A program made the translations under genes and the position numbers. This document shows positions 1,588 to 57,038 of a stretch of DNA of 64,000 nt, piece by piece. The notes under the pieces were generated by a model. That model saw only the letters and a program-made list of their open reading frames with translations, had not been told where the DNA came from and searched no databases. Position 1 is the first letter of the stretch; each line of letters opens with the position of its first letter. Source of the DNA: Thermoplasmatota archaeon (GTDB taxonomy: Archaea > Thermoplasmatota > E2 > UBA202 > JdFR-43); the NCBI GenBank assembly GCA_029258955.1, contig JAPDJT010000006.1:1-64000 (forward strand), written 5' to 3'.

Positions 1588-2805
1588 ATGAAGGATATAT
1601 TCGATGGTATAAGATCATCTAGCAACATCTTCAAAAATAAGGAAGTATTACGTCCCTCTTATGTTCCAGATACTCTGCCTCATAGGGAGAAGCAAATAAA
1701 TGAGCTTGCTTCTATTCTTGCACCTGCTTTGAGGGGAGAGACACCATCTAATGTTTTTATTTATGGAAAGACAGGCACAGGGAAAACCGCAGTGGCAAAA
1801 TTCATTGGAAAGCAGTTGGTGGCAAAAGGAAAGGAGTTGCAGGTAAATACAAATTTTGTTTACATTAATTGTGAGATTGTCGATACTCAATACAGGGTAT
1901 TGCAGAATATTGCAAATCATTTTATAAAGTCATGGGAAAGTAGAGTGCCTTTTACAGGCTGGCCCACAGATGAGGTATATAATAAGCTTATAAATGCAAT
2001 AGAAAAAACAAAAGGAGTAACTGTAATTGTTCTTGATGAAGTAGACAAACTAAAAGGAGACGAGGTTCTTTATAATCTTTCTCGCCTAAATTATGATTTG
2101 GAGAAAGCAAGAACATCAATAATAGGAATTTCAAATGACTTGAAATTTACAGAATTTCTTGACCCAAGAGTTAAATCTTCTCTGGGAGAGGAGAATTTAG
2201 TTTTCCCTCCATATTCAGCAGATGAATTGTGCGATATACTTGGGGAGAGAGCAAAAATTGCTTTTAAGGAAGGTGTATTGGAGGAGAATGTTATTCCTCT
2301 ATGTGCAGCACTGGCAGCACAGGAACATGGAGATGCAAGGAGAGCTTTAGATTTGTTAAGAGTTTCTGCTGAGATTGCAGATAGACTTGGGGAAGAAAAG
2401 GTTACTGAAAAACATGTTAGGCTGGCAGAGAATAAAATTGAATTGGATAGAGTAACAGAAATTGTCAGAACATTGCCCATACAGACAAAACTTGTTTTGA
2501 TGGCAGCGGTAATAGGAACAGAACGCCAAGATAACTTAACAACTGGAGAGCTTTATATCATTTACAAAGATTTATGCAAATTAGCTGGTATAAATGTGCT
2601 TACACAAAGAAGAGTAGCTGATTTGATATCTGAACTGGATATGCTGGGCATAATAAATGCTCGTTTAATTTCGAAAGGAAGATATGGAAGAACAAGGGAA
2701 ATAGAAGTGTCTTGCCCATACAAAATAAAGGAATTGCTTGAAAAAGACGATAGCTTACCAAAGCTTCGTGAGTACAAACCAAAATTACAGTCTAAGCTTC
2801 TCTGA
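1588..2805 (+). CDS. cdc6: Orc1/Cdc6 family origin-binding initiator ATPase
   Basis: This is a 405-residue AAA+ ATPase that in archaea binds origin DNA and loads the MCM helicase. Seen: Walker A in GKTGTGKTAVAKF, Walker B in VIVLDEVDKL, a sensor-2-like EHGDARRALDLLR segment and a C-terminal winged-helix region beginning near LPIQTKLVLMAAV. I chose the ATG at 1588 because GGGGAGGAG stands just upstream as a Shine-Dalgarno site; an upstream in-frame TTG at 1573 overlaps that site and is rejected. The length fits the family. Its 3' end overlaps the convergent signal peptidase gene by 21 bases. The gap upstream may contain an origin. Confidence 0.95.
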   Translation: MKDIFDGIRSSSNIFKNKEVLRPSYVPDTLPHREKQINELASILAPALRGETPSNVFIYGKTGTGKTAVAKFIGKQLVAKGKELQVNTNFVYINCEIVDTQYRVLQNIANHFIKSWESRVPFTGWPTDEVYNKLINAIEKTKGVTVIVLDEVDKLKGDEVLYNLSRLNYDLEKARTSIIGISNDLKFTEFLDPRVKSSLGEENLVFPPYSADELCDILGERAKIAFKEGVLEENVIPLCAALAAQEHGDARRALDLLRVSAEIADRLGEEKVTEKHVRLAENKIELDRVTEIVRTLPIQTKLVLMAAVIGTERQDNLTTGELYIIYKDLCKLAGINVLTQRRVADLISELDMLGIINARLISKGRYGRTREIEVSCPYKIKELLEKDDSLPKLREYKPKLQSKLL

Positions 2806-3606
2806 TTTCCATTTTTTATAAAATTTGTATGCATCCCATATGGTTGGTATCCCTATTAGAATAAACAATGATATTCCCAAGCAAATCCATTCATCTTTTG
2901 GAGCAACAGCTTTTCCTATTCTTATCCATCCTGGTTCTCCTTGAATATTTTTATCGCCAAAGAAGACCAATTTTATTAAACCAAACCATGGTACTTCTCC
3001 TCTTGCTTTTCCTATAATCCATTCTGGCTTAACAGGTGTTGATATTGCTGGCAAAGAGCCCTGTCTGATTGCTTGATCGGCAGAAGGATTATGGTCTCCT
3101 TTTGTTATAAATCCGCTATGAGGGGGCTTATAATTGCTTAATCCAAGTTCTGCTATGGTTATGGAAGTAACATTATACAAGTCATATTCTTCAACAGTAT
3201 AAGTTCCATCTGAATTAACTTGAACCCAGCAAATGGCTCTATGAATTATTGGTGTAGCATCCTTATCGGCTATTCCATCTCCATCTCTATCAGGAATATA
3301 AACTATTACATCTCCGTAATCACCGTATGTTTTGTGTTTTGTTGTAGGAGCGTAGGAAGGACCTCTTGTAATCACATCATCTTTTCCGTGTATTTTTTTA
3401 ACTAAAACTAAGTCTCCTGGATCAATAGTTCCTATCCTTCCAAAAGGAGCATTATCATGCATCATGGAGCCAGATGTAACAACAACCATCGGAGAATGAG
3501 GAAATTGTCCTGTATATCCCCATAGAACTGCAAGCAACAATCCAACTATTGCTATAGCAAAGACAATGTCTCTAATCATTGGCAAGGCTTTTTCTTTTAA
3601 GTCCAT
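2785..3606 (-). CDS. Archaeal signal peptidase I (S26B, Sec11-like)
   Basis: This is a membrane-anchored serine peptidase that cleaves signal peptides from secreted proteins. One transmembrane helix lies at residues 12-30, followed by the catalytic serine in VTSGSMMHDN (Ser47). The GDLVLVKK and GDVIVYIP strands typical of the family follow, then a candidate catalytic histidine in PIIHRAI (His122). A late ITKGDHNPSADQ segment matches the conserved box with the acidic residue, and a second hydrophobic helix stands near the C-terminus. At 273 residues it is longer than many archaeal homologues. Its start codon touches the stop of the dCMP deaminase gene, so the two are probably co-transcribed. 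The window encodes several of its likely clients (C25 peptidases, propeller and PKD proteins). Confidence 0.9.
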   Translation of the reverse strand: MDLKEKALPMIRDIVFAIAIVGLLLAVLWGYTGQFPHSPMVVVTSGSMMHDNAPFGRIGTIDPGDLVLVKKIHGKDDVITRGPSYAPTTKHKTYGDYGDVIVYIPDRDGDGIADKDATPIIHRAICWVQVNSDGTYTVEEYDLYNVTSITIAELGLSNYKPPHSGFITKGDHNPSADQAIRQGSLPAISTPVKPEWIIGKARGEVPWFGLIKLVFFGDKNIQGEPGWIRIGKAVAPKDEWICLGISLFILIGIPTIWDAYKFYKKWKSEKLRL

Positions 3607-15963: not shown

Positions 15964-16080
15964 GTTAATGAAATAGGGTTGTTGCTATAATAAAATGAAA
16001 TGGAATGTTGTTATGGCTTCCTCTCATGTGATAATAGCCAATGGCAACCAATTCATATATTCAACATACCGGAATTTTTG
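15964..16080. repeat. Eroded copies of the window-wide palindromic repeat
   Basis: The 269-base gap between the ABC ATPase and GRAM-like genes holds a half copy (AATGAAATAGGGTTGTTGCTATAA, read at 15968-15991 in two pieces) and a fuller copy from about 15993. The fuller copy shows AATGAAATGGAATG, GTTGTTATGGC, then AATAGCCAATGGCAACC. The two arms are reverse complementary with mismatches. No gene was seen here. Confidence 0.6.
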
Positions 16081-16673: not shown

Positions 16674-16772
16674 GGGTCTGTCGAAAACTAAATGAAATTG
16701 GGTATTGTCATAGTAAGTTCTCTTGCAATAGTGACCAATGATAGCCATTTCTTCTATTTGTTCAACAAACCC
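16674..16772. mobile_element. MITE-like element, copy A (99 bp)
   Basis: It begins GGGTCTGTCGAAAACTAAAT and ends TTTGTTCAACAAACCC, imperfect terminal inverted repeats. It differs from copies B and C by a 4-base gap (TCTCTTGCAATAG for TCTCTTCTAGGCAATAG) and a few substitutions. The flanks GATTTTTTC and TGATTTTTC resemble, but do not exactly form, a 9-bp target duplication. There is no coding capacity. Confidence 0.8.
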
Positions 16773-16816: not shown

Positions 16817-18865
16817 TTGATTGTGCGAGTTGCATTATTTATAATCTCATTCATTCTATTCCTTCCTGTTGCAGAAAGTTTTGATGTAGCTATTGAATGG
16901 GTAAAGATAGACAAAGAAACAGTATATGACGGAGAGTTAGTTGAGATAAAAGCAAGAGTGGAAAGAATAGAAGGAAATGAATCATTTGCAGTCTCATTTT
17001 ATTATGATGAAATTGATTCTTCCCATTTAATAGGAAGAGTGCACTATGATTCAATTAATTATTATCGGTTGCCATCCATAATTTGGGATACAAAGAATAA
17101 AGTAGGAAAGCATAGAATAATTGTTTGTGTAAAGGATGATAACGAATCAAATAGCATAGCTTATTGCAATGTAACTGTCCGGCCATGTAAAAAAGCAAAT
17201 TTATTGATTTCAGAAGTATATTATCATTGCTATCCACACCGAAATAACGAGTATATTGCAATTTTAAATGCTGGTGATAAAGAGGTAAACTTAGAGGGCT
17301 ATTACATAACTACTCAGCCTTGGAAAAGAATTGATAAACAAAACAAAATTATTTTTCCAAAATATATTCTTAAGCCAGGCGAAAAAATATATATTACTCA
17401 AGATGGAACCTCATTTAAAGAAGATACAGGATTTGATGCAGATTATGAGTATTATAACTGCTCTTCCTTGCCAGATATGAAAAGGGTGGGAAGTTTTATT
17501 TTATCAAATGAAGGTGGTGTTGTTTGTTTGAAAAATAAATACAACCATACTATAGATGTAGTTGTGTATGGCAATGCCTATTTTAATGAAGGATGGAGTG
17601 GAGAATCTGTCCATAATGTTGCTGAAGGAATTGTTTTAAAAAGAAAAGATGCAATTGATACAAATACAAGCAAGGATTGGGAATATAACAGAACATATGT
17701 TATTGGACAATCAGATTTCCCTCCATTTTATGGAGAAGCAACATTTGCAATTGCATTTTGCTCACCAGATTGCTCTTACGATATTGTTGCAAATGAAATA
17801 AAAAATGCTTCTTTTTTGCTAATAAATCTATATCTTTTTACAAATCCTTTCTTGGCAGAAATTTTAAATAAAAGTAATGCAGAAATTAGAATTCTTCTCG
17901 ATGGAAATGTATATGGCGGGATACCGATGGAGGAAAGATATATTGCATACATGCTTAGCAAAAAAGCAGAAATAAGATACATGCTCAATGATGAAGAGAA
18001 TGGAATTTATAAAAGATATAAATATGATCATGCAAAATATGTTGTTTTAGATAATGGGTTCATAATTCATTCAGCAAATTGGGCGAAAAGCGGAATACCA
18101 AAGGATAATACATATGGAAATAGGGAATGGGGAATTGTTGTAAAAAGTGAAAATGGAAGCGAGTTTTTAAAGAAAGTTTTCTATTATGACTGGAATTATA
18201 GAGATTGTGTAGAATATAATGAAACAAGCTTTACACATGGTAAACCACCAGAAGATTTTTCAATAAGCTATTATGTTCCAAAAGGGAATTATAAGCCAAA
18301 ATTTGATGCTTTGAAAATAAACACAACCTTTAATTTTTCAATAATTCTGGCTCCAGATAATGCTGAAGAAGAGATAATCAATTTAATAAAAGAGGCAAAA
18401 GAAGAGATTTTAGTTGAGCAGGCATATATACAACTTGAATGGGAAGGTGGACTAAATCCATTTATAAGAGAGGTATTAAATAGAAATAAAAGTGGCATCA
18501 AAGTTTATGTTATATTGAACAAATATGAATATGGATGGAGTTCAGTAATAAATAAGGGAACAAAAGAGTTTTTAGAAGAAAATGGAATAAAAGTTAAATT
18601 GCATAGCCAATACACCATACACAACAAAGGATTAATTATAGATGGAGAAAAAGTTCTCATTTCTTCCATAAACTGGGGAGAAAATTCAGTTAGGAGAAAT
18701 AGAGAAATAGGAATTGTGGTAGAAGATAAAAACATTGCAAGCTATTTTGAAGATATATTCTGGTATGACTGGAATTATAAGGTAGAGAAGAAAGAAGGAG
18801 GAATAGAAATAATTTATACTCTTATTGCCTTCCTGCTTATAATTCTAAGGAGGAGAATAAAATGA
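16817..18865 (+). CDS. Secreted/membrane-anchored phospholipase D-like protein with lamin-tail domain
   Basis: The 682-residue product has an N-terminal hydrophobic signal (LFIISFILFLPVAESF) and a C-terminal anchor (YTLIAFLLIILRRRIK), so most of it lies outside the cell. After an N-terminal beta domain comes a lamin-tail-like domain (LLISEVYYHCYP ... NEYIAILNAGDKEVNLEGYYI). Two phospholipase D half-sites follow: DHAKYVVLDNGFIIHSANW and IHNKGLIIDGEKVLISSINW, both with the HxK(x)4D pattern. Lamin-tail plus PLD is a combination known in archaea; the substrate may be lipid or extracellular DNA. The start is TTG (16817) or, more likely for a leaderless mRNA, GTG at 16823, about 20 bases after a TATATAG box. 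The stop overlaps the rhomboid start by 4 bases (ATGA). Confidence 0.85.
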   Translation: MIVRVALFIISFILFLPVAESFDVAIEWVKIDKETVYDGELVEIKARVERIEGNESFAVSFYYDEIDSSHLIGRVHYDSINYYRLPSIIWDTKNKVGKHRIIVCVKDDNESNSIAYCNVTVRPCKKANLLISEVYYHCYPHRNNEYIAILNAGDKEVNLEGYYITTQPWKRIDKQNKIIFPKYILKPGEKIYITQDGTSFKEDTGFDADYEYYNCSSLPDMKRVGSFILSNEGGVVCLKNKYNHTIDVVVYGNAYFNEGWSGESVHNVAEGIVLKRKDAIDTNTSKDWEYNRTYVIGQSDFPPFYGEATFAIAFCSPDCSYDIVANEIKNASFLLINLYLFTNPFLAEILNKSNAEIRILLDGNVYGGIPMEERYIAYMLSKKAEIRYMLNDEENGIYKRYKYDHAKYVVLDNGFIIHSANWAKSGIPKDNTYGNREWGIVVKSENGSEFLKKVFYYDWNYRDCVEYNETSFTHGKPPEDFSISYYVPKGNYKPKFDALKINTTFNFSIILAPDNAEEEIINLIKEAKEEILVEQAYIQLEWEGGLNPFIREVLNRNKSGIKVYVILNKYEYGWSSVINKGTKEFLEENGIKVKLHSQYTIHNKGLIIDGEKVLISSINWGENSVRRNREIGIVVEDKNIASYFEDIFWYDWNYKVEKKEGGIEIIYTLIAFLLIILRRRIK

Positions 18866-20570: not shown

Positions 20571-20710
20571 AAATTAATGAAAGAAATGGTGCCCTTACTG
20601 CATAGAAAGGAATTTACCATGCAGCATCTTCTTTCATTAATTTTTTTATGTAAAGTTGGTAAACAAATGAATTTTATTATGGCACATCTTTTTGAATTAT
20701 AGCCAACGCA
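20571..20710. repeat. Palindromic repeat copies between divergent presenilin-like and acyl-CoA synthetase genes
   Basis: A good inverted repeat is formed by AAATTAATGAAAGAAATGGTGC (20571-20592, given in two parts: AAATTAATGAAAG and AAATGGTGC) and GCAGCATCTTCTTTCATTAATTT near 20621-20643. A second, eroded copy follows at about 20663-20710 (AAATGAATTTTATTATGGCA ... ATTATAGCCAACGCAAC). The 275-base gap contains no gene. Confidence 0.6.
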
Positions 20711-33531: not shown

Positions 33532-33566
33532 ATTAGTTTAATTTCTATCTTTTTCTTATCCCAGTG

Positions 33567-33680
33567 AAAAATAAATGAAATAAGATATTGTTATATAGTA
33601 AATTCCATCTCATGCAAAGAAGCCAATAACAACCTTTTTTATTTTTTGCAAACCCTCTTATCCCAGCAAAAATATTTTTT
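33567..33680. repeat. Repeat shared with 43147-43258 (~110 bp)
   Basis: AAAATAAATGAAATAAGATA, TTGTTATATAGTAAATTCC, ATGCAAAGAAGCCAATAACAACC and CCCTCTTATCCCAGCA occur here and, with few differences, at 43147-43258 in the same orientation. Both lie upstream of IS6-like transposase relics on the minus strand. The core is that of the window-wide palindromic family, linking the family to these relics. Confidence 0.75.
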
Positions 33681-38429: not shown

Positions 38430-38700
38430 TGGAAAATTATTAATGAAAAATGGTTGTTGAAATAACGAGTTAGAAAGTATAACCTAATTTGCAAAAAAAG
38501 ATGTAAATTCTCTTCATAGACAAACTACTTTTTCATTTATTGATGAATCTTAAAGCCCTAATAAACGAATTGATTTTCTACATAATAAACCAATGATAAC
38601 ACTTCTTTCATTAATGCTCCTAAAAATTTAGAATGTCATGGATAAAATGAAAGAAATAGACTCAAGAAGGGAAGAGCTTCACAAAAATTAATGAAATAAA
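38430..38700. repeat. Eroded palindromic repeat copies after the S2P-like gene
   Basis: TTATTAATGAAAAATGGTTG, GTATAACC, ATAATAAACCAATGATAACAC and TTCTTTCATTAATGC outline at least one and probably two decayed copies. The gap of about 600 bases from 38423 to 39021 contains only these, the MITE at 38702 and a further copy after it. No gene was found. Confidence 0.5.
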
Positions 38701-38701
38701 T

Positions 38702-38804
38702 GGGTCTGTCGAAAATTAGATGAAATAGGGTATTGTCATAGTAAGTTCTCTTCTAGGCAATAGTGACCAATAATAGCCATTTCTTCTATTTGTTCAACAA
38801 ACCC
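38702..38804. mobile_element. MITE-like element, copy B (103 bp) with exact 9-bp target duplication
   Basis: The element starts GGGTCTGTCGAAAA and ends TTGTTCAACAAACCC. The flanking DNA is GAAATAAAT on both sides, an exact 9-bp direct repeat. The two halves are near-complementary for about 38 bases (GGGTCTGTCGAAAATTAGAT against GGGTTTGTTGAACAAATAGA on the other strand), so the element can fold into a long hairpin. It has no coding frame. Confidence 0.88.
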
Positions 38805-38814
38805 GAAATAAATG

Positions 38815-38985
38815 CACTATAGCAAGTTCTCTTTCATGAGATGATATATGACCATTTCTTTCATAATGCTTTTAAAACTTAGTTTAAAAAAATTATGAAA
38901 GGGTAGCATAATAAGGTTTCCATCATCCAATAATGATAGCACCATTTCTCATATTTGTTCATCAATCCCAAAAATTTAGAATCCT
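38815..38985. repeat. Two more eroded repeat copies downstream of MITE copy B
   Basis: AATGCACTATAGCAAGTTCTC with GACCATTTCTTTCATAATGC, and ATGAAAGGGTAGCATAATAAGG with CCAATAATGATAGCACC, CATATTTGTTCATCAATCCC follow the MITE internal sequence and right end. The last copy keeps a recognisable right terminus. Confidence 0.55.
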
Positions 38986-42729: not shown

Positions 42730-43146
42730 CTCCAGATGGTAAATAGTTGCAAATGCAGTAAGTCTTTTTCCTTTGAGGCATTGGAAGAAAAACATTTCCA
42801 GAATCCTCTATCGCATTTCTTTCTCCAAATGTTTCATGCTATATACCATGGAGCCTTGTCTATCTTAATCAATGGCTTGTCCTCACAATAAGGTAAGAAC
42901 CCCTAACAAACCTTATTACATCAATAGAAGTTCTCCATTCCATTATCATTATTCCTAAAATCTCCATGTTTCTATATCTATAGCTGCCCAGATGTAATGC
43001 CATTTATCCCCAATCCTTATCTTGGTTTCATCCATTGCTGCGCAACGCTTATTTTTCCAGAATTTAAATAATTGAGCAAATTTATGATATCATTGCCTTA
43101 GCATTTCATGACTAAACTTTGCAAAATCTCTAAGGAATTTACCCAA
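42730..43146 (-). pseudogene. Relic of an IS6-like (ISPfu-type) DDE transposase
   Basis: The minus strand reads KFLRDFAKFSHEMLRQ, an in-frame TGA, then YHKFAQLFKFWKNKR, AAMDETKIRIGDKWHYIWAA, then after a frameshift GIMIMEWRTSIDVIRFV, KPLIKIDKAPWY, a stop, and FWKCFSSNASKEKD. The DET and IDKAPWY blocks are the first two acidic sites of archaeal IS6-like transposases; the Glu region is deleted. The TGA falls where RRWYHKF has Trp. At least two stops, a frameshift and a deletion make it inactive. It fills most of the 696-base gap before aspS. Confidence 0.75.
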
Positions 43147-43258
43147 TAAAAAATAAATGAAATAGGATGTTGTTATATAGTAAAATTCCATCCCATGCAA
43201 AGAAGCCAATAACAACCTTTTTTCATTTTTCGCAAATCCTCTTACCCCAGCAGAAAAT
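43147..43258. repeat. Repeat shared with 33567-33680
   Basis: AAAATAAATGAAATAGGATG, TTGTTATATAGTAAAATTCC, ATGCAAAGAAGCCAATAACAACC and CCTCTTACCCCAGCAGAAAA match the copy at 33567 closely. It is followed by GCATAATCAGGAGGAG. The inner part is the palindromic core GTTGTTAT ... GCCAATAACAAC. Confidence 0.75.
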
Positions 43259-44888: not shown

Positions 44889-45176
44889 ATGGGAATTGGC
44901 ATGGGGTTACTTTTTTTATTTTATTCTTATAACTCCGATTCTTTTTGCTATGCCAGAATCCTCCTTGATACAACTGGATTAATGGGGCATTGGACTCATG
45001 TAGTCCATATTGCAATCTTCATTCCATTCATTGGTTTATCAGCCTACTTTGCCTTACCTCTTTTCTTTATAGTAGGATTTGCTGGTATAGTAATAGGAAT
45101 TGTCATATTCAAAAAAGAGTCCCGGCGCCCGGATTTGAACCGGGGACACGCGGATATCTGCGGCGGTGGGTTATAG
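44889..45176 (+). CDS. Doubtful small membrane protein running into the antisense of tRNA-Tyr
   Basis: A frame from ATG 44889 has two hydrophobic stretches (MGIGMGLLFLFYSY and HIAIFIPFIGLSAYFA ... FFIVGFAGIVIGIVIF). A TATTTATATA box sits about 20-28 bases upstream, as for a leaderless gene. The last ~17 residues are antisense to tRNA-Tyr, which is unusual. A second frame (FILITPILFAMPESS) overlaps the same stretch, so this may be a decayed gene. The call is weak. Confidence 0.3.
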   Translation: MGIGMGLLFLFYSYNSDSFCYARILLDTTGLMGHWTHVVHIAIFIPFIGLSAYFALPLFFIVGFAGIVIGIVIFKKESRRPDLNRGHADICGGGL

Positions 45177-45228
45177 CCCAAGGAAAGCAACTACAGTCCG
45201 CCGCTCTACCAGTCTGAGCTACGCCGGG
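45120..45228 (-). tRNA. tRNA-Tyr (anticodon GTA) with a 35-nt intron
   Basis: Minus strand: acceptor CCCGGCG/CGCCGGG, D stem GCTC/GAGC, anticodon stem GCGGA/TCCGC with loop CTGTAG-A (GTA), T arm CCCGG-TTCAAAT-CCGGG, discriminator A at 45120. Exon 1 is 45191-45228 and exon 2 45120-45155. The intron 45156-45190 follows position 37, the canonical archaeal site, and is presumably removed by the splicing endonuclease. A TTTAAAAA box upstream (about 45249-45263) is the likely promoter. Confidence 0.95.
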
Positions 45229-45312
45229 TCAATATGAATATGCGTGGATTTTTTTAAATTTTTGCTTTAAGAAATGAATTGCAGAAATTTGTAATTTCTT
45301 TTTTCTTTTTTC

Positions 45313-45415
45313 GGGTCTGTCGAAAATTAAATGAAATAGGGTATTATCATAGTAAGTTCTCTTCTAGGCAATAGTGACCAATAATAGCCATTTCTTCTAT
45401 TTGTTCAACAAACCT
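45313..45415. mobile_element. MITE-like element, copy C (103 bp) with exact 9-bp target duplication
   Basis: It starts GGGTCTGTCGAAAATTAAAT and ends TTGTTCAACAAACCT. TCTTTTTTC stands immediately on both sides, an exact 9-bp repeat. It is nearly identical to copy B through its length (TATTATCATAG for TATTGTCATAG). It sits between tRNA-Tyr and the PPAT fusion gene. Confidence 0.85.
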
Positions 45416-45458
45416 TCTTTTTTCATAAATTTCTTAAATGTAAATAAGCTACATATCA

Positions 45459-46406
45459 ATGAAGGTTTGCTTAGGAGGAACATTTGATATACTGCATGAG
45501 GGTCATAAATTGTTGTTGAAGAAGGCTTGTCAGACAGGAAAAGAAGTTTTTATTGGTTTGGCTACAGATGAATTGGTTGTTAAGTTGGGCAAAGAAGCAA
45601 AAAGTTATGAAGAAAGGAGAAAGGAGCTGGAAGAATATATTGAAAAGCAAGGATGGAAAAATAAAGTTAGAATTTTACCTTTAAAAGATGTATATGGCAC
45701 CGCTGTGGAGGAAGATTTTGATGCTATAGTTGTTTCTCCAGAAACTGAAAAGAGAGCAAAAGAAATAAACGAGATAAGGAAGAAAAAAGGGCTAAAAGAA
45801 TTGAAAATAATAAAAGTTCCATTTGTTGTTGCAAACGATGGAATAGCTATTGCAACGAGGAGAATTAAAAATAGGGAGATAGATGGAAAGCATAGATTAA
45901 AGCCATTGAAAGTATGTGTGGCGACGAAAAATGAAATTAAAATGGAAGCAGTAAAAGAAGCTTTTAATGAGTTCTTCCCAAATTTAGAAATAGAATATGA
46001 AAGTGTGGAAGCAGAAACAAAAAAACAGCCTTGGAATGAGGAAATTTTGGAAGGAGCTATTGAAAGAGCAAAAAAAGCTGTAAAGGGAAAAGATTATGGA
46101 ATCGGTATTGAAGCAGGAATAAAAGAGGAAGATGGAATTTATTTTGTTGAACAATATGTTGCTATAGCAGATAAACTTGGCCACATAACATATGGAAAAA
46201 GTCCTGCCTTTCAATGTCCTGAATGGATTATAGAAGCGCTGAAAAAAGGAAAGGAAATGAAAGAAGTTATTCCATTTAAAAATGAAGAGGAGAAGAAAAA
46301 AGGAGCGGTATGGTACTTTAGCAGGTTAATAGACAGAAAAGAAATTACAAAAATAGCTATTATAATGGCTTTGATTCCAAGGAGTCCTACTTTTTCTCAG
46401 TTTTGA
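45459..46406 (+). CDS. Fusion: phosphopantetheine adenylyltransferase plus XTPase/ITPase-like (DUF84) domain
   Basis: The first ~150 of 315 residues are an archaeal-type phosphopantetheine adenylyltransferase with [11 protein letters not shown] (HxGH at 13-16), a [10 protein letters not shown] segment and a basic RRIKNREID (ISSTK-like) end. It makes dephospho-CoA from 4'-phosphopantetheine. From about residue 150 ([20 protein letters not shown]) the protein is a DUF84/YjjX inosine/xanthosine triphosphatase with [19 protein letters not shown] and [16 protein letters not shown], a house-cleaning NTPase. The two are in one frame without a stop. Its 3' end overlaps eS31 by 20 bases; two genes beyond, on the opposite strand, is the next CoA enzyme, dephospho-CoA kinase. 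Confidence 0.9.
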
Positions 46407-50837: not shown

Positions 50838-50945
50838 AGGGGTTGTCAAAAATTAATTAATGAAAAGGATTGTTGTTATGTTCATATTTTTCATGTGATA
50901 ATAGCCAATCATAGCTATTTTGCATTTATTCAAACTTATCCTATC
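50838..50945. repeat. Palindromic repeat copy with recognisable MITE end
   Basis: The left end GGGGTTGTCAAAAATTAATT resembles the MITE terminus GGGTCTGTCGAAAATTAAAT. The core GATTGTTGTTATG and GATAATAGCCAATCATAGC and an end TTTATTCAAACTTATCC follow. It occupies much of the 294-base gap before the DUF1015 gene; no gene was found there. Confidence 0.65.
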
Positions 50946-50979: not shown

Positions 50980-52128
50980 ATGGTTGAAGTAAAAGAATTT
51001 GAAGGATTGCGTCCTAAAAATCCAGAAGAATTTTGTACAAAACCATATGATGTGATTAGTGAGGAAGAAGCTAATGAACTTAGAAAAAATCCAAATTCTG
51101 CCATACACATAATTTTGCCTGTTGGAGAAGGTGATGAAAAATATGAAAATGCAAAAAAAGAATTTGAGAGATTGAAGGAAGACATGATTAGAGATGAGCC
51201 AAGCATTTATTTATATAAGGAAGGAGATGAAGAATTTAGTCATAGAGGATTCATCTTATGCGCATCTTTGGAAGATTATGAAAAAGGATTAATAAAGAAA
51301 CACGAAGAAACAAGGGAAAAACCTTTACAAGATAGGATAAAGCATATTGAGGCTGTTAAAGCAAATACTGGCTTAGTATGGACTGTTTTCAAAAGAAATG
51401 ATGAAATAAAGAAATTAATGAATGAAATAATGAAGGAAGAGCCAGTATATGATTTTGAAAAATACGGAAATAGACACATTTTATGGAAAATAAATGATGA
51501 AGAAAAAATAAACAAAATAAAGGAACTATTTAGGAACACCCCGCTTTACATTGCAGATGGTCATCATAGAATTGCTGCTGCTTGGCATTACTGGAAAAAG
51601 TATGATGGCAAGGAGGCAAAATATGTCATGATTTTTGCTGCAAATGATGATGAAGTAAGAATTTTGCCTTATAATAGAGTTATAAGGAAAATAGAAAATG
51701 AGAATTTTATAGAGGAAATAAAAAAAGAATTTCATGTTGAAGAACTCACAGAAACGAAGGAGCCTGAAAAACACGAGATTCAAATGTATTACAAAAAGAA
51801 GTGGTGGAAATTGGTGCCAAAAGAAATTCCAGAGGGCATAGTTGATTCCTTAGATGTTAGCATTTTACAGAAAAAAATACTTGAGCCTATTCTCGGTATA
51901 AAAGATATAAGGAAAGATCCAAACATTTTCTTTGTAGGTGGAAAGATTGCAAGAGAGGAATATGAAAGACTAGTTGATGAAGAAGGAAACGCAGCAGTGT
52001 TTTATCTACATCCAACGAGTATTGATGAGCTAGAAGCTGTTGCGGATGCAGGCTTAAGCATGCCGCCAAAATCAACATGGTTCGATCCAAAACTACTTAC
52101 TGGCTTGGTATTTCATCTCCTTGAATAA
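50980..52128 (+). CDS. DUF1015 family protein
   Basis: This 382-residue soluble protein matches DUF1015: EFEGLRPKNPEEFCTKPYDVISEEEA at the start (in part), FSHRGFILCASLEDYEKGLIKKHE, HEETREKPLQDRI, LYIADGHHRIAAAWHY and AVADAGLSMPPKSTWFDPKL at the end. The ADGHHR block resembles ParB/kinase-like sites; related proteins have been proposed to act in serine or nucleotide metabolism, but the function is not established. It ends 32 bases inside the convergent cupin gene. Confidence 0.82.
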   Translation: MVEVKEFEGLRPKNPEEFCTKPYDVISEEEANELRKNPNSAIHIILPVGEGDEKYENAKKEFERLKEDMIRDEPSIYLYKEGDEEFSHRGFILCASLEDYEKGLIKKHEETREKPLQDRIKHIEAVKANTGLVWTVFKRNDEIKKLMNEIMKEEPVYDFEKYGNRHILWKINDEEKINKIKELFRNTPLYIADGHHRIAAAWHYWKKYDGKEAKYVMIFAANDDEVRILPYNRVIRKIENENFIEEIKKEFHVEELTETKEPEKHEIQMYYKKKWWKLVPKEIPEGIVDSLDVSILQKKILEPILGIKDIRKDPNIFFVGGKIAREEYERLVDEEGNAAVFYLHPTSIDELEAVADAGLSMPPKSTWFDPKLLTGLVFHLLE

Positions 52129-54380: not shown

Positions 54381-54464
54381 CTTTCTCACAGATTTTTAAG
54401 ATACAAAAAATGCTTAACAGCATTTTTTAAGCAAATTTCATATTTAAATGAAAATAAAGCTTCG

Positions 54465-54700
54465 TTGAAACAAATGAAAGAAATGGTTGCCATTGGCTAT
54501 TTTTAAGGGGGATTGTCATAACACATTCTTATTTCATTTATTTTCACCTACATGAAATAGTTGGTGAGAAAATAAATGAAGATGCCCAATATAACAACAT
54601 TTCTTTTCCATCGAAAATTAAAATGAATGTTGTTATGGCATATCCTCCCACGATAATAGCAAATGATAACCCTTCTTTCATTCTTATTAGCAACTAAAAT
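54465..54700. repeat. Two palindromic repeat copies between thermosome and tmcA
   Basis: Copy one: AAATGAAAGAAATGGTTGCC, ATTGGCTATTTTTAAGG, GTCATAACAC. Copy two, well kept: ATCGAAAATTAAAATGAATG, GTTGTTATGGCATATCC, CGATAATAGCAAATGATAACC, CTTTCATTC. The 400-base gap holds only these and the two promoters. Confidence 0.6.
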
Positions 54701-54740: not shown

Positions 54741-57038
54741 ATGGATGCTTTGGATTTGATTGTAAAATTGCAAAAAGAAGCAAAAAAGTATAATGAGCGT
54801 AGAATGATTGTATTAGCTGGAGATAGGGAAAAAAGTTTTGGCATTGTCTTTTCATTTATTTCAAATTTTAAAGGAAAGATTGCCTTGCTTTCATATTTGG
54901 AAATGAAAGTAGATGGTGTTGATTGCTTCCATTTAAAAGATTCTGGAAAACTGCTTGGCACTACTTATGATTTATTAATTTTAGATGTTTATCATTCATT
55001 ACAACCTTCTGATATCGGCAAATTATATGGGATTGTTAGAGGAGGGGGTTTAATTTTTCTGATTACTCCTCGCTTAGAAGAATGGAAAAACATGCTGAAC
55101 AGATACCATTATAGAATTTTAACTCCTCCTTATAAAGAAAAGGACATAAGGAAAAATTTCATTCCATGGTTTGTTGAAAAGCTTAGAAAATACGATGGCA
55201 TCGCCATAATTGAAGATGGAGAAATTGTAAAAAAGGGATTGTATAAAAGTAAAAAAGAGGAAAGGAAAAAGCCAAAATTGCCAGAGGAAAGGCAATTCAA
55301 CGACAATGCATACAAAATGGCAATAACACAAGACCAAGTTGATTTTATTAAATGCTTAGAGGAAATGATTGAAAAGCCGAACCCGGTAACAGCTGTAGTT
55401 TTAAAAGCCAATAGAGGAAGGGGTAAATCAAGCGCTATTGGCATAGCTTTGCCAGCTTTAATTGAAAAACTTCTGAATTTCAAAAAAAGTTTGAGGGTAA
55501 TGCTTGTTGCTCCAGAAATAAAAAATGTTCAAGAGATTTTTAGATTTGCTGAATTAGTATGGAAAAGAATGGGTTATAAAGTTAAAAAGAAGGAAAGAGG
55601 AGGAGATGTTTTTGAGCTGGGCATTCAAAATGCAGTCATAGAATATTTCAAGCCAATTGATGCCCTTGAAAGATATGCAGATGTTATAGTTGTTGATGAA
55701 GCTGCTTCCATTCCCCCTAATATTCTTTTGCAATTTTTAGAAAGAACAAATAGGATAATTTACTCATCAACTATACATGGATATGAAGGGGCTGGAAGGA
55801 GCTTTTCAATAAGATTTATGAAAAGATTGAAAAGCAAAAAACTAAAGCTAATAGAATTTGAAATGGAAGAGCCTATAAGATATAGCAAGTACGATCCAAT
55901 AGAAAAATGGGCATTTGAAACTTTGCTATTGGATGCCGAAGCTCCTGAAGTTAAGGAGGTTGAAATAGATAAGCTCGTATATGAAAAGTTTGACATGAGT
56001 AAAATATTGCAAGAAGAGGAAAAGCTCAGAGAATTTTTTGGTATTTTAATTTTAGCCCATTATAAAAACAATCCTAATGATTTAGCAATTTTATGCGATG
56101 CCCCAAATCAGATAGCTAGAGCTATGAGCTACAATGATAAGATAGTTTGTTCAATGCAATTAGCTTTTGAAGGAAATATGGACAAAGATGATTGCCACCG
56201 CTTATATTATGAATCTGCAATGCTTCCTGGAAATGTTATTCCTCAAATAATGGTCAGACATTATAGGAAAAAGAAATATGGAGCATATAAAGGGCTCAGA
56301 ATAGTCAGAATTGCTGTTCATCCAGATTTATTTAAAAAAGGAATTGGCTCGAAAGCTTTAGAAAATGTGATAAATGAGGCAAAGGAAATGGGAATGGATT
56401 ATGTGGGGGCGAGCTTTGGCGCCACTATAGCTTTATTGCGCTTCTGGATGAAAAATGGTTTTTTGCCAATGCATATGACTACAAGCAGAAATGAAGTTAG
56501 TGCGGAGTTTTCTGTTACTGTTATAAAGCCATTGAGTGAGGAATTTGAAAAAGAGTTAAAGTGGATGAGAAAGGAATTTATGAAAAGGTTCATGTACTGG
56601 CTTATTGAGCCATTAAGGGATTTGAATAGCAACGTTGCTTTAATGATTCTTGATTCATATGAGGGGGAGAAAATTGATCTAGGGCTTGATGAAAAAGAGC
56701 TTAGCAGAATAATGGCATACATATGGAGAGCTGGGCTGACATATAAAACAGTAAAAGATTGTTTATTCAAGCTTGCCTTTAATTTCTTCTTAAGCAATAA
56801 AAAAAGTATGCTGAGCAGAGGAGAAAGATTGCTTTTATTGGCTAAAAATTTGCAATGCAAAAGCTGGGATAGAGTGGCAGAGATAGTTGGAATGAGTGAA
56901 GAAAAATGCAAAGAAAAATTAATGGAGATAATTGAAAAAATAATTTTGGAGTTTTATGGTGATAGGGATGAAGTGTTTGAATTTCAAAAGGAAGTACAAA
57001 GAATTGCTCAAGAAAGGGAAAAAGGTAGCGACTCTTAG
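54741..57038 (+). CDS. tmcA: tRNA(Met) cytidine acetyltransferase TmcA-like
   Basis: This 765-residue RNA acetylation enzyme is Nat10/TmcA-like and makes N4-acetylcytidine. Domains in order: an N-terminal DUF1726-like part, an RNA helicase-like ATPase with Walker A KANRGRGKSSAIGIA and Walker B VIVVDEAASIPP, a GNAT domain with acetyl-CoA loop VHPDLFKKGIGSKAL, and a C-terminal tRNA-binding part. Extensive ac4C in rRNA and tRNA is known in hyperthermophilic archaea. The ATG at 54741 follows an A+T-rich AATTTAAAATTG element by about 25 bases. The last 71 bases overlap the ASCH gene. Confidence 0.95.
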   Translation: MDALDLIVKLQKEAKKYNERRMIVLAGDREKSFGIVFSFISNFKGKIALLSYLEMKVDGVDCFHLKDSGKLLGTTYDLLILDVYHSLQPSDIGKLYGIVRGGGLIFLITPRLEEWKNMLNRYHYRILTPPYKEKDIRKNFIPWFVEKLRKYDGIAIIEDGEIVKKGLYKSKKEERKKPKLPEERQFNDNAYKMAITQDQVDFIKCLEEMIEKPNPVTAVVLKANRGRGKSSAIGIALPALIEKLLNFKKSLRVMLVAPEIKNVQEIFRFAELVWKRMGYKVKKKERGGDVFELGIQNAVIEYFKPIDALERYADVIVVDEAASIPPNILLQFLERTNRIIYSSTIHGYEGAGRSFSIRFMKRLKSKKLKLIEFEMEEPIRYSKYDPIEKWAFETLLLDAEAPEVKEVEIDKLVYEKFDMSKILQEEEKLREFFGILILAHYKNNPNDLAILCDAPNQIARAMSYNDKIVCSMQLAFEGNMDKDDCHRLYYESAMLPGNVIPQIMVRHYRKKKYGAYKGLRIVRIAVHPDLFKKGIGSKALENVINEAKEMGMDYVGASFGATIALLRFWMKNGFLPMHMTTSRNEVSAEFSVTVIKPLSEEFEKELKWMRKEFMKRFMYWLIEPLRDLNSNVALMILDSYEGEKIDLGLDEKELSRIMAYIWRAGLTYKTVKDCLFKLAFNFFLSNKKSMLSRGERLLLLAKNLQCKSWDRVAEIVGMSEEKCKEKLMEIIEKIILEFYGDRDEVFEFQKEVQRIAQEREKGSDS

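Follow-up and report, generated by a model that had tools for sequence, protein, structure and literature searches.

Archaeal MITEs are known from Sulfolobus, halophiles and methanogens, and some of them have been attributed to insertion sequences (ISs) of the IS5 family (PMC3852290, PMC10969869). The family described here resembles these IS5-linked elements, namely the MITEs of Methanosarcina and M. burtonii (PMC3852290) and SM1-SM4 of Sulfolobus (PMC10969869), in that it is short, non-coding and multicopy, carries IS-like inverted repeats and can tentatively be attributed to an IS. It differs from them in its exact 9-bp target duplications, as 0 or 3 bp are listed for the described elements, in its large set of older copies, in its promoter-proximal placement, and in ends that are related but not identical to those of the ISs. 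Taken alone, the MITE is an ordinary addition to a known sort of element; the promoter-proximal insertion of the MITE together with ISs is the new element here.

Insertion at a set short distance upstream of promoters has been described for bacterial Mutator-like DDE elements, namely TnGBS, ISLre2 and some ISKra4 elements, which insert 15-17 bp upstream of the -35 box of sigma-A promoters, and AT-rich archaeal targets have been speculated for ISH6 (PMC3942029). A comparable set distance is seen in the flanks of the present ISs (offsets 9-12) and not in those of the young MITEs; the described elements are bacterial, address sigma-A promoters and encode Mutator-like transposases, whereas those studied here are archaeal, lie next to BRE/TATA elements and encode an IS5-type transposase, and both of their IS ends are found facing promoters. 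A Mutator-like transposase was not borne out for the partner IS, whose best matches are IS5-type and PF01609. For promoter-phased insertion by archaeal IS5-type elements we found no precedent in the open-access literature, and since the search covered this literature only, the absence is weak evidence. The ends of IS903 (IS5 family), GGCTTTGTTGAATAAATC, and its 9-bp duplications presumably resemble those of the present elements. In contrast to the IS903 group, the candidate partner transposase matches PF01609 and not PF13737, and it scores below the NCBIfam cut-off for IS5.

A young MITE family on top of an older hairpin layer

The window, i.e., the whole stretch of 64,000 nucleotides that was analysed, belongs to contig C8 of a 1.7-Mb assembly with 49 contigs that is 94% complete. 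The three copies of about 100 bp that the preliminary description had reported were found again, all on the + strand: copy A (16674-16772, 99 bp), whose outer edge lies 44 bp upstream of an ORF with a TTG start at 16817; copy B (38702-38804, 103 bp), which resides in a convergent intergenic gap; and copy C (45313-45415, 103 bp), whose outer edge lies 43 bp upstream of the ATG of a coaD-like ORF (45459-46406). The inverted ends claimed for them are likewise present, as related and near-constant 12-bp ends (GGGTCTGTCGAA / GGGTTTGTTGAA) in each copy, with copy C departing from the GGGTTTGTTGAA-type end by a terminal T in place of C. Exact 9-bp repeats flank copy B (GAAATAAAT at 38693-38701 and 38805-38813) and copy C (TCTTTTTTC at 45304-45312 and 45416-45424), and the flank pair of copy A, GATTTTTTC / TGATTTTTC, is imperfect with 6 of 9 bases matching in register, all of which agrees with the earlier account. 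As to the neighbouring genes, the top NCBIfam matches of the ORF next to copy A (16817-18865) are DISARM DrmC-like and NucT nucleases, all below cut-off, and copy C sits between the coaD-like gene and a 109-nt Rfam tRNA match (45120-45228, - strand) that was missed by ARAGORN and is probably an intron-containing tRNA, its length being what an archaeal tRNA with an intron would show.

A DNA search of the 1.7-Mb genome with the MITE returned 30 matches, among which 17 are close to full length, and since this many matches occur in a genome of this size, the repeats are not due to chance. The 17 young copies show pairwise identities of 84-100% (median 93%) and measure 87-103 bp, which leaves no room for a transposase gene. 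Their terminal inverted repeats are near-constant across the complete copies, and a few copies are truncated at an end. When the bases outside both ends were compared in register, exact 9-bp duplications appeared in 6 of the 16 young copies with defined ends and in 0 of the 240 mismatched flank pairs that served as the null, and 9-mers matching at 8 or more of 9 positions in 7 of the 16 copies and in 2% of the 240 pairs. Duplications of 7, 8, 10 or 11 bp showed no comparable excess around the same 16 copies. The earlier reading of the repeats as transposed, non-coding elements, for which a genome-wide listing of copies and flanking 9-mers had been proposed, is thus upheld by the near-constant ends of complete copies and by the 9-bp duplications. 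The same is true for the claim of recent activity, because two of the young copies (L013 and L014) are identical in sequence, yet occupy different exact 9-bp duplications. The repeats of about 100 bp are a real and young MITE family of an uncultured archaeon that probably belongs to the class Thermoplasmata. A BLAST search detected the MITE in none of 40 relatives, and a pattern scan of named genomes, a collection in which the window's own genome may be missing, was empty.

The young MITEs represent the latest addition to a hairpin family that is older. At E<0.01, a sequence-only model of the family (R1) matched the window 20 times; it gave at least 70 matches in the window's own genome, where 68 candidates were scored, and 3 in a genome of the same genus. 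At E<=0.001, 127 hairpins were counted in 350 kb of fetched sequence, a density that does not amount to a genome-wide estimate since the stretches had been selected around known copies. Among the older hairpins of the window are those at 43146-43232 (+, E 7.8e-18), 33564-33648 (+, E 3.9e-17), 54464-54546 (-, E 1.2e-16), 15995-16064 (+, E 1.6e-11) and 20572-20649 (-, E 3.6e-11), as well as a degraded one that adjoins copy B (38884-38967, +, E 2.3e-07). Two further members have their outer edges close to a start, one (50844-50933, +) 40 bp upstream of the ORF 50980-52128 and the other (54610-54685, +) 45 bp upstream of a tmcA-like ORF at 54741. Hairpins are often grouped in one intergenic gap, and at 1501-1705 of locus L009 a young copy and an older hairpin on the opposite strand are separated by no more than two bases, the young copy coming first.

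Of the near-palindrome that had been proposed along the full length of each element, the pairing of the arms stands, but the middle (about 20-30 nt) is unpaired. The predicted fold of copy B is a long imperfect hairpin that beats shuffles (z -3.3 on one strand and -4.8 on the other), the young copy at L009 folds no better than shuffles (z +0.6), and RNAalifold over 29 family members produced no consensus fold. As such, the hairpin is a property of the inverted arms without a sign of conserved RNA structure, and the latter idea was rejected. Many copies of short, imperfect intergenic palindromes would also be in keeping with REP/BIME-like extragenic palindromes spread by RAYT, a Y1 HUH transposase, or with structured RNA or terminator elements, a reading to which we attach hardly any weight. 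HUH transposases are not known to produce 9-bp target duplications such as the MITE has, and PF01797 is without a match in the 94%-complete genome but present in 10 of 14 control genomes, on which grounds a REP/RAYT system was rejected; a structured RNA is contradicted by the absent consensus fold and by an Rfam search that gave no match at the MITE copies.

Insertion sequences with related ends

Family searches show that proteins with PF13737 and PF01609 are present in the genome. Two ISs, both cut by contig ends, were located by their end sequences, with regular expressions being applied non-exhaustively to loci returned by searches: IS-A with the ends GGGTTCGTCGAAAAATTC and IS-B with the ends GAGGTTGTCGAAAAATTT, the right ends of the latter lying at four contig ends. 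For IS-B, contigs C40 and C11 share the exact 9-mer GAAATAGGA outside the left and right IS ends and contigs C32 and C30 share CATCTACCT outside the IS ends (both found by script), and C41 and C29 share GGTTGGAGG; for IS-A, C36 and C28 share CATCTTATA (flanks paired by eye in the last two cases). No partner was seen for the left ends at C39 and C15, nor for the right ends at the start of C28 and the end of C39. Because four IS-end pairs share exact 9-mers across contigs, we conclude that the IS family makes 9-bp duplications, as the MITE does. The flanks of a relative in G002, read by eye, are near-identical with one indel.

The transposase of a full-length relative in G013, a different genus, is 299 aa long, and this type of transposase matches PF01609 (DDE_Tnp_1) above cut-off and has no PF13737 match. 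Its best NCBIfam match is that to IS5 (NF033579), with 61 bits against a cut-off of 140, and as this score is below the cut-off, we file the partner as IS5-type and not as a confirmed member of IS5. Relatives of the transposase occur in MAGs titled Thermoplasmata, Thermoplasmatales or archaeon.

Over the first 12 bases, each MITE end, left and right, matches IS-A at 10 positions, and both MITE ends match the left end of the G013 IS at 11; in the MITE and in IS-A alike, left ends are GTCGAAAA-like and right ends read GAA(T/C)AAAT. Resident IS5-type elements are probably what moves the MITE. The preliminary description had sought the driver outside the window, and IS5-type ISs with related ends and a 9-bp duplication do exist elsewhere in the genome as a plausible driver. 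The longer transposase element with identical ends that had been expected did not turn up among the end matches listed in the 94%-complete assembly, and for this reason mobilisation in trans has the status of a proposal. The same result, together with the 94% completeness of the assembly and the fact that the ISs examined match the MITE ends at 10-11 of 12 positions and never at 12, could also mean that the driver is a different IS, lost or unassembled, whose ends equal those of the MITE, in which case the resident IS5-type elements would be mere cousins. We consider this unlikely, as the resident ISs share with the MITE the 9-bp duplication, the asymmetry of left and right ends and a similar promoter-proximal placement.

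From our point of view, the joint best explanation, to which we assign a probability of roughly 0.75, is a non-coding MITE of about 100 bp with imperfect terminal inverted repeats that would be moved in trans by an IS5-type transposase. The resident IS5-type IS family, with ends related to those of the MITE, would be the source of this enzyme, and insertion by it would create the 9-bp target duplications. The placement about 37-50 bp upstream of starts would reflect target choice at promoters and not only later selection, e.g., by recognition of the TBP/TFB-bound or bent BRE/TATA region, and the older hairpins would stem from earlier bursts of the same MITE lineage.

Internal deletion of an IS is a usual path to a MITE. 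Internally deleted IS copies in which N- and C-terminal coding parts are joined were observed at L103 and at about 65547-65893 of contig C9 of G000 (L058). The idea that the MITE arms are copies of the right end of IS-B was dropped as weakly supported, the best of 12 arm-by-end comparisons giving p=0.0025 and the rest being not significant against shuffles, and for the interior of the MITE an origin from an IS is not convincing. Another IS on contig C31 of G000 (L035), with an intact 351-aa transposase (1966-3021; PF13737 and PF01609) and the ends CTGCTGTGTTGCATAACT, was rejected as a partner of the MITE because its ends differ (7 and 5 matches of 18). One IS copy (L100, G007:C10) carries two consecutive end-like sequences on its left, GCTGCTGTGTTGAACAAATA and then GGGTTTGTTGAAAAATTT, perhaps due to a nested insertion.

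Placement upstream of starts and promoter phasing

The placement of MITE and IS copies about 37-50 bp upstream of starts is non-random. In a hairpin set that was sampled around known copies, and with uncurated first-ATG/GTG/TTG calls as start codons, 152 hairpin edges face starts and 67 face stops, with a pile-up at 40-60 bp. The 40-49 bp bin holds 25 edges as against 3.6 expected for random points in intergenic gaps, and the range of 60-100 bp is thin. A null in which insertion points were drawn anew inside the same gaps, but never in the first 37 bp, predicts 13.9 edges at 37-50 bp upstream of starts, and 31 were observed (0/2000); this range was picked, like the motif offsets given below, after the data had been seen. 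The excess is found both in the subset of high-scoring and mostly young hairpins (11 edges where 3.2 are expected, 0/2000) and in the older copies (20 vs. 10.8, 1/2000), and by manual count 19 of the 31 edges lie in front of ORFs that start with ATG and are 150 aa or longer. Among 32 distinct IS right ends, there are 21 that point towards starts and 8 at a distance of 37-44 bp from one, and IS copies from several genera share the placement just upstream of starts.

A BRE/TATA element near -32 is expected for mostly leaderless genes, and an EM search of 101 promoters without a nearby hairpin yielded the motif [CA]AAAATTTTT with a peak near -32. In unselected IS flanks, this motif peaks at offsets 9-12 outside the IS end, for right ends (n=35) as for left ends (n=15; each p<1/2000). 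The best motif falls at offset 8-13 in 18 of 50 IS flanks, whereas random windows of the same flanks give an expectation of 3.3 (maximum 8 in 300), and outside the window's own genome it lies at 8-13 bp in 13 of 40 flanks; an alignment of 15 promoter-side IS flanks was hand-picked and is illustrative only. In the flanks of the young MITEs, the motif scan did not find the phase of the IS flanks (best offset 31, p=0.016), and the promoter link of the MITE hence rests on its distance to start codons only. The MITE and the ISs thus agree in start-codon distance, but disagree in the finer motif-phase test. The distance from element end to TATA, for which the motif is weak, was no tighter than that to the ATG.

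One could imagine that the peak at 37-50 bp was left by selection, either because other upstream insertions were lost or because hairpins at this position were retained as promoter insulators or regulators. Genes are tightly spaced, and core promoters with a motif near -32 would keep the last 37 bp or so before the start free of insertions, so that this is a possibility to be taken seriously, albeit one that we hold for the less probable course of events. The excess persists even with the first 37 bp forbidden in the null, the region of 60-100 bp is thinner than expected, and the enrichment is strongest in the high-scoring, mostly young subset; moreover, IS copies of about 1 kb are similarly placed in other genera, which a function of the hairpin would not explain.

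Target choice could, at what we regard as even odds, take the specific form that archaeal IS5-type transposases and the MITEs they feed pick their sites by the core promoter, with the 9-bp duplication directly upstream of BRE/TATA and possibly via contact with TBP/TFB, as the archaeal analogue of the targeting seen for Ty3-TFIIIB and TnGBS-sigmaA. If the placement is indeed due to target choice, archaea would have transposons that read a TBP/TFB-type promoter, and integration targeting at a eukaryote-like promoter would become testable in a simple system. It could further account for the many insertions that a compact genome can take up without losing genes. Lastly, at one locus (L232), read by eye, an IS right end lies about 45 bp upstream of an apparent initiator tRNA.
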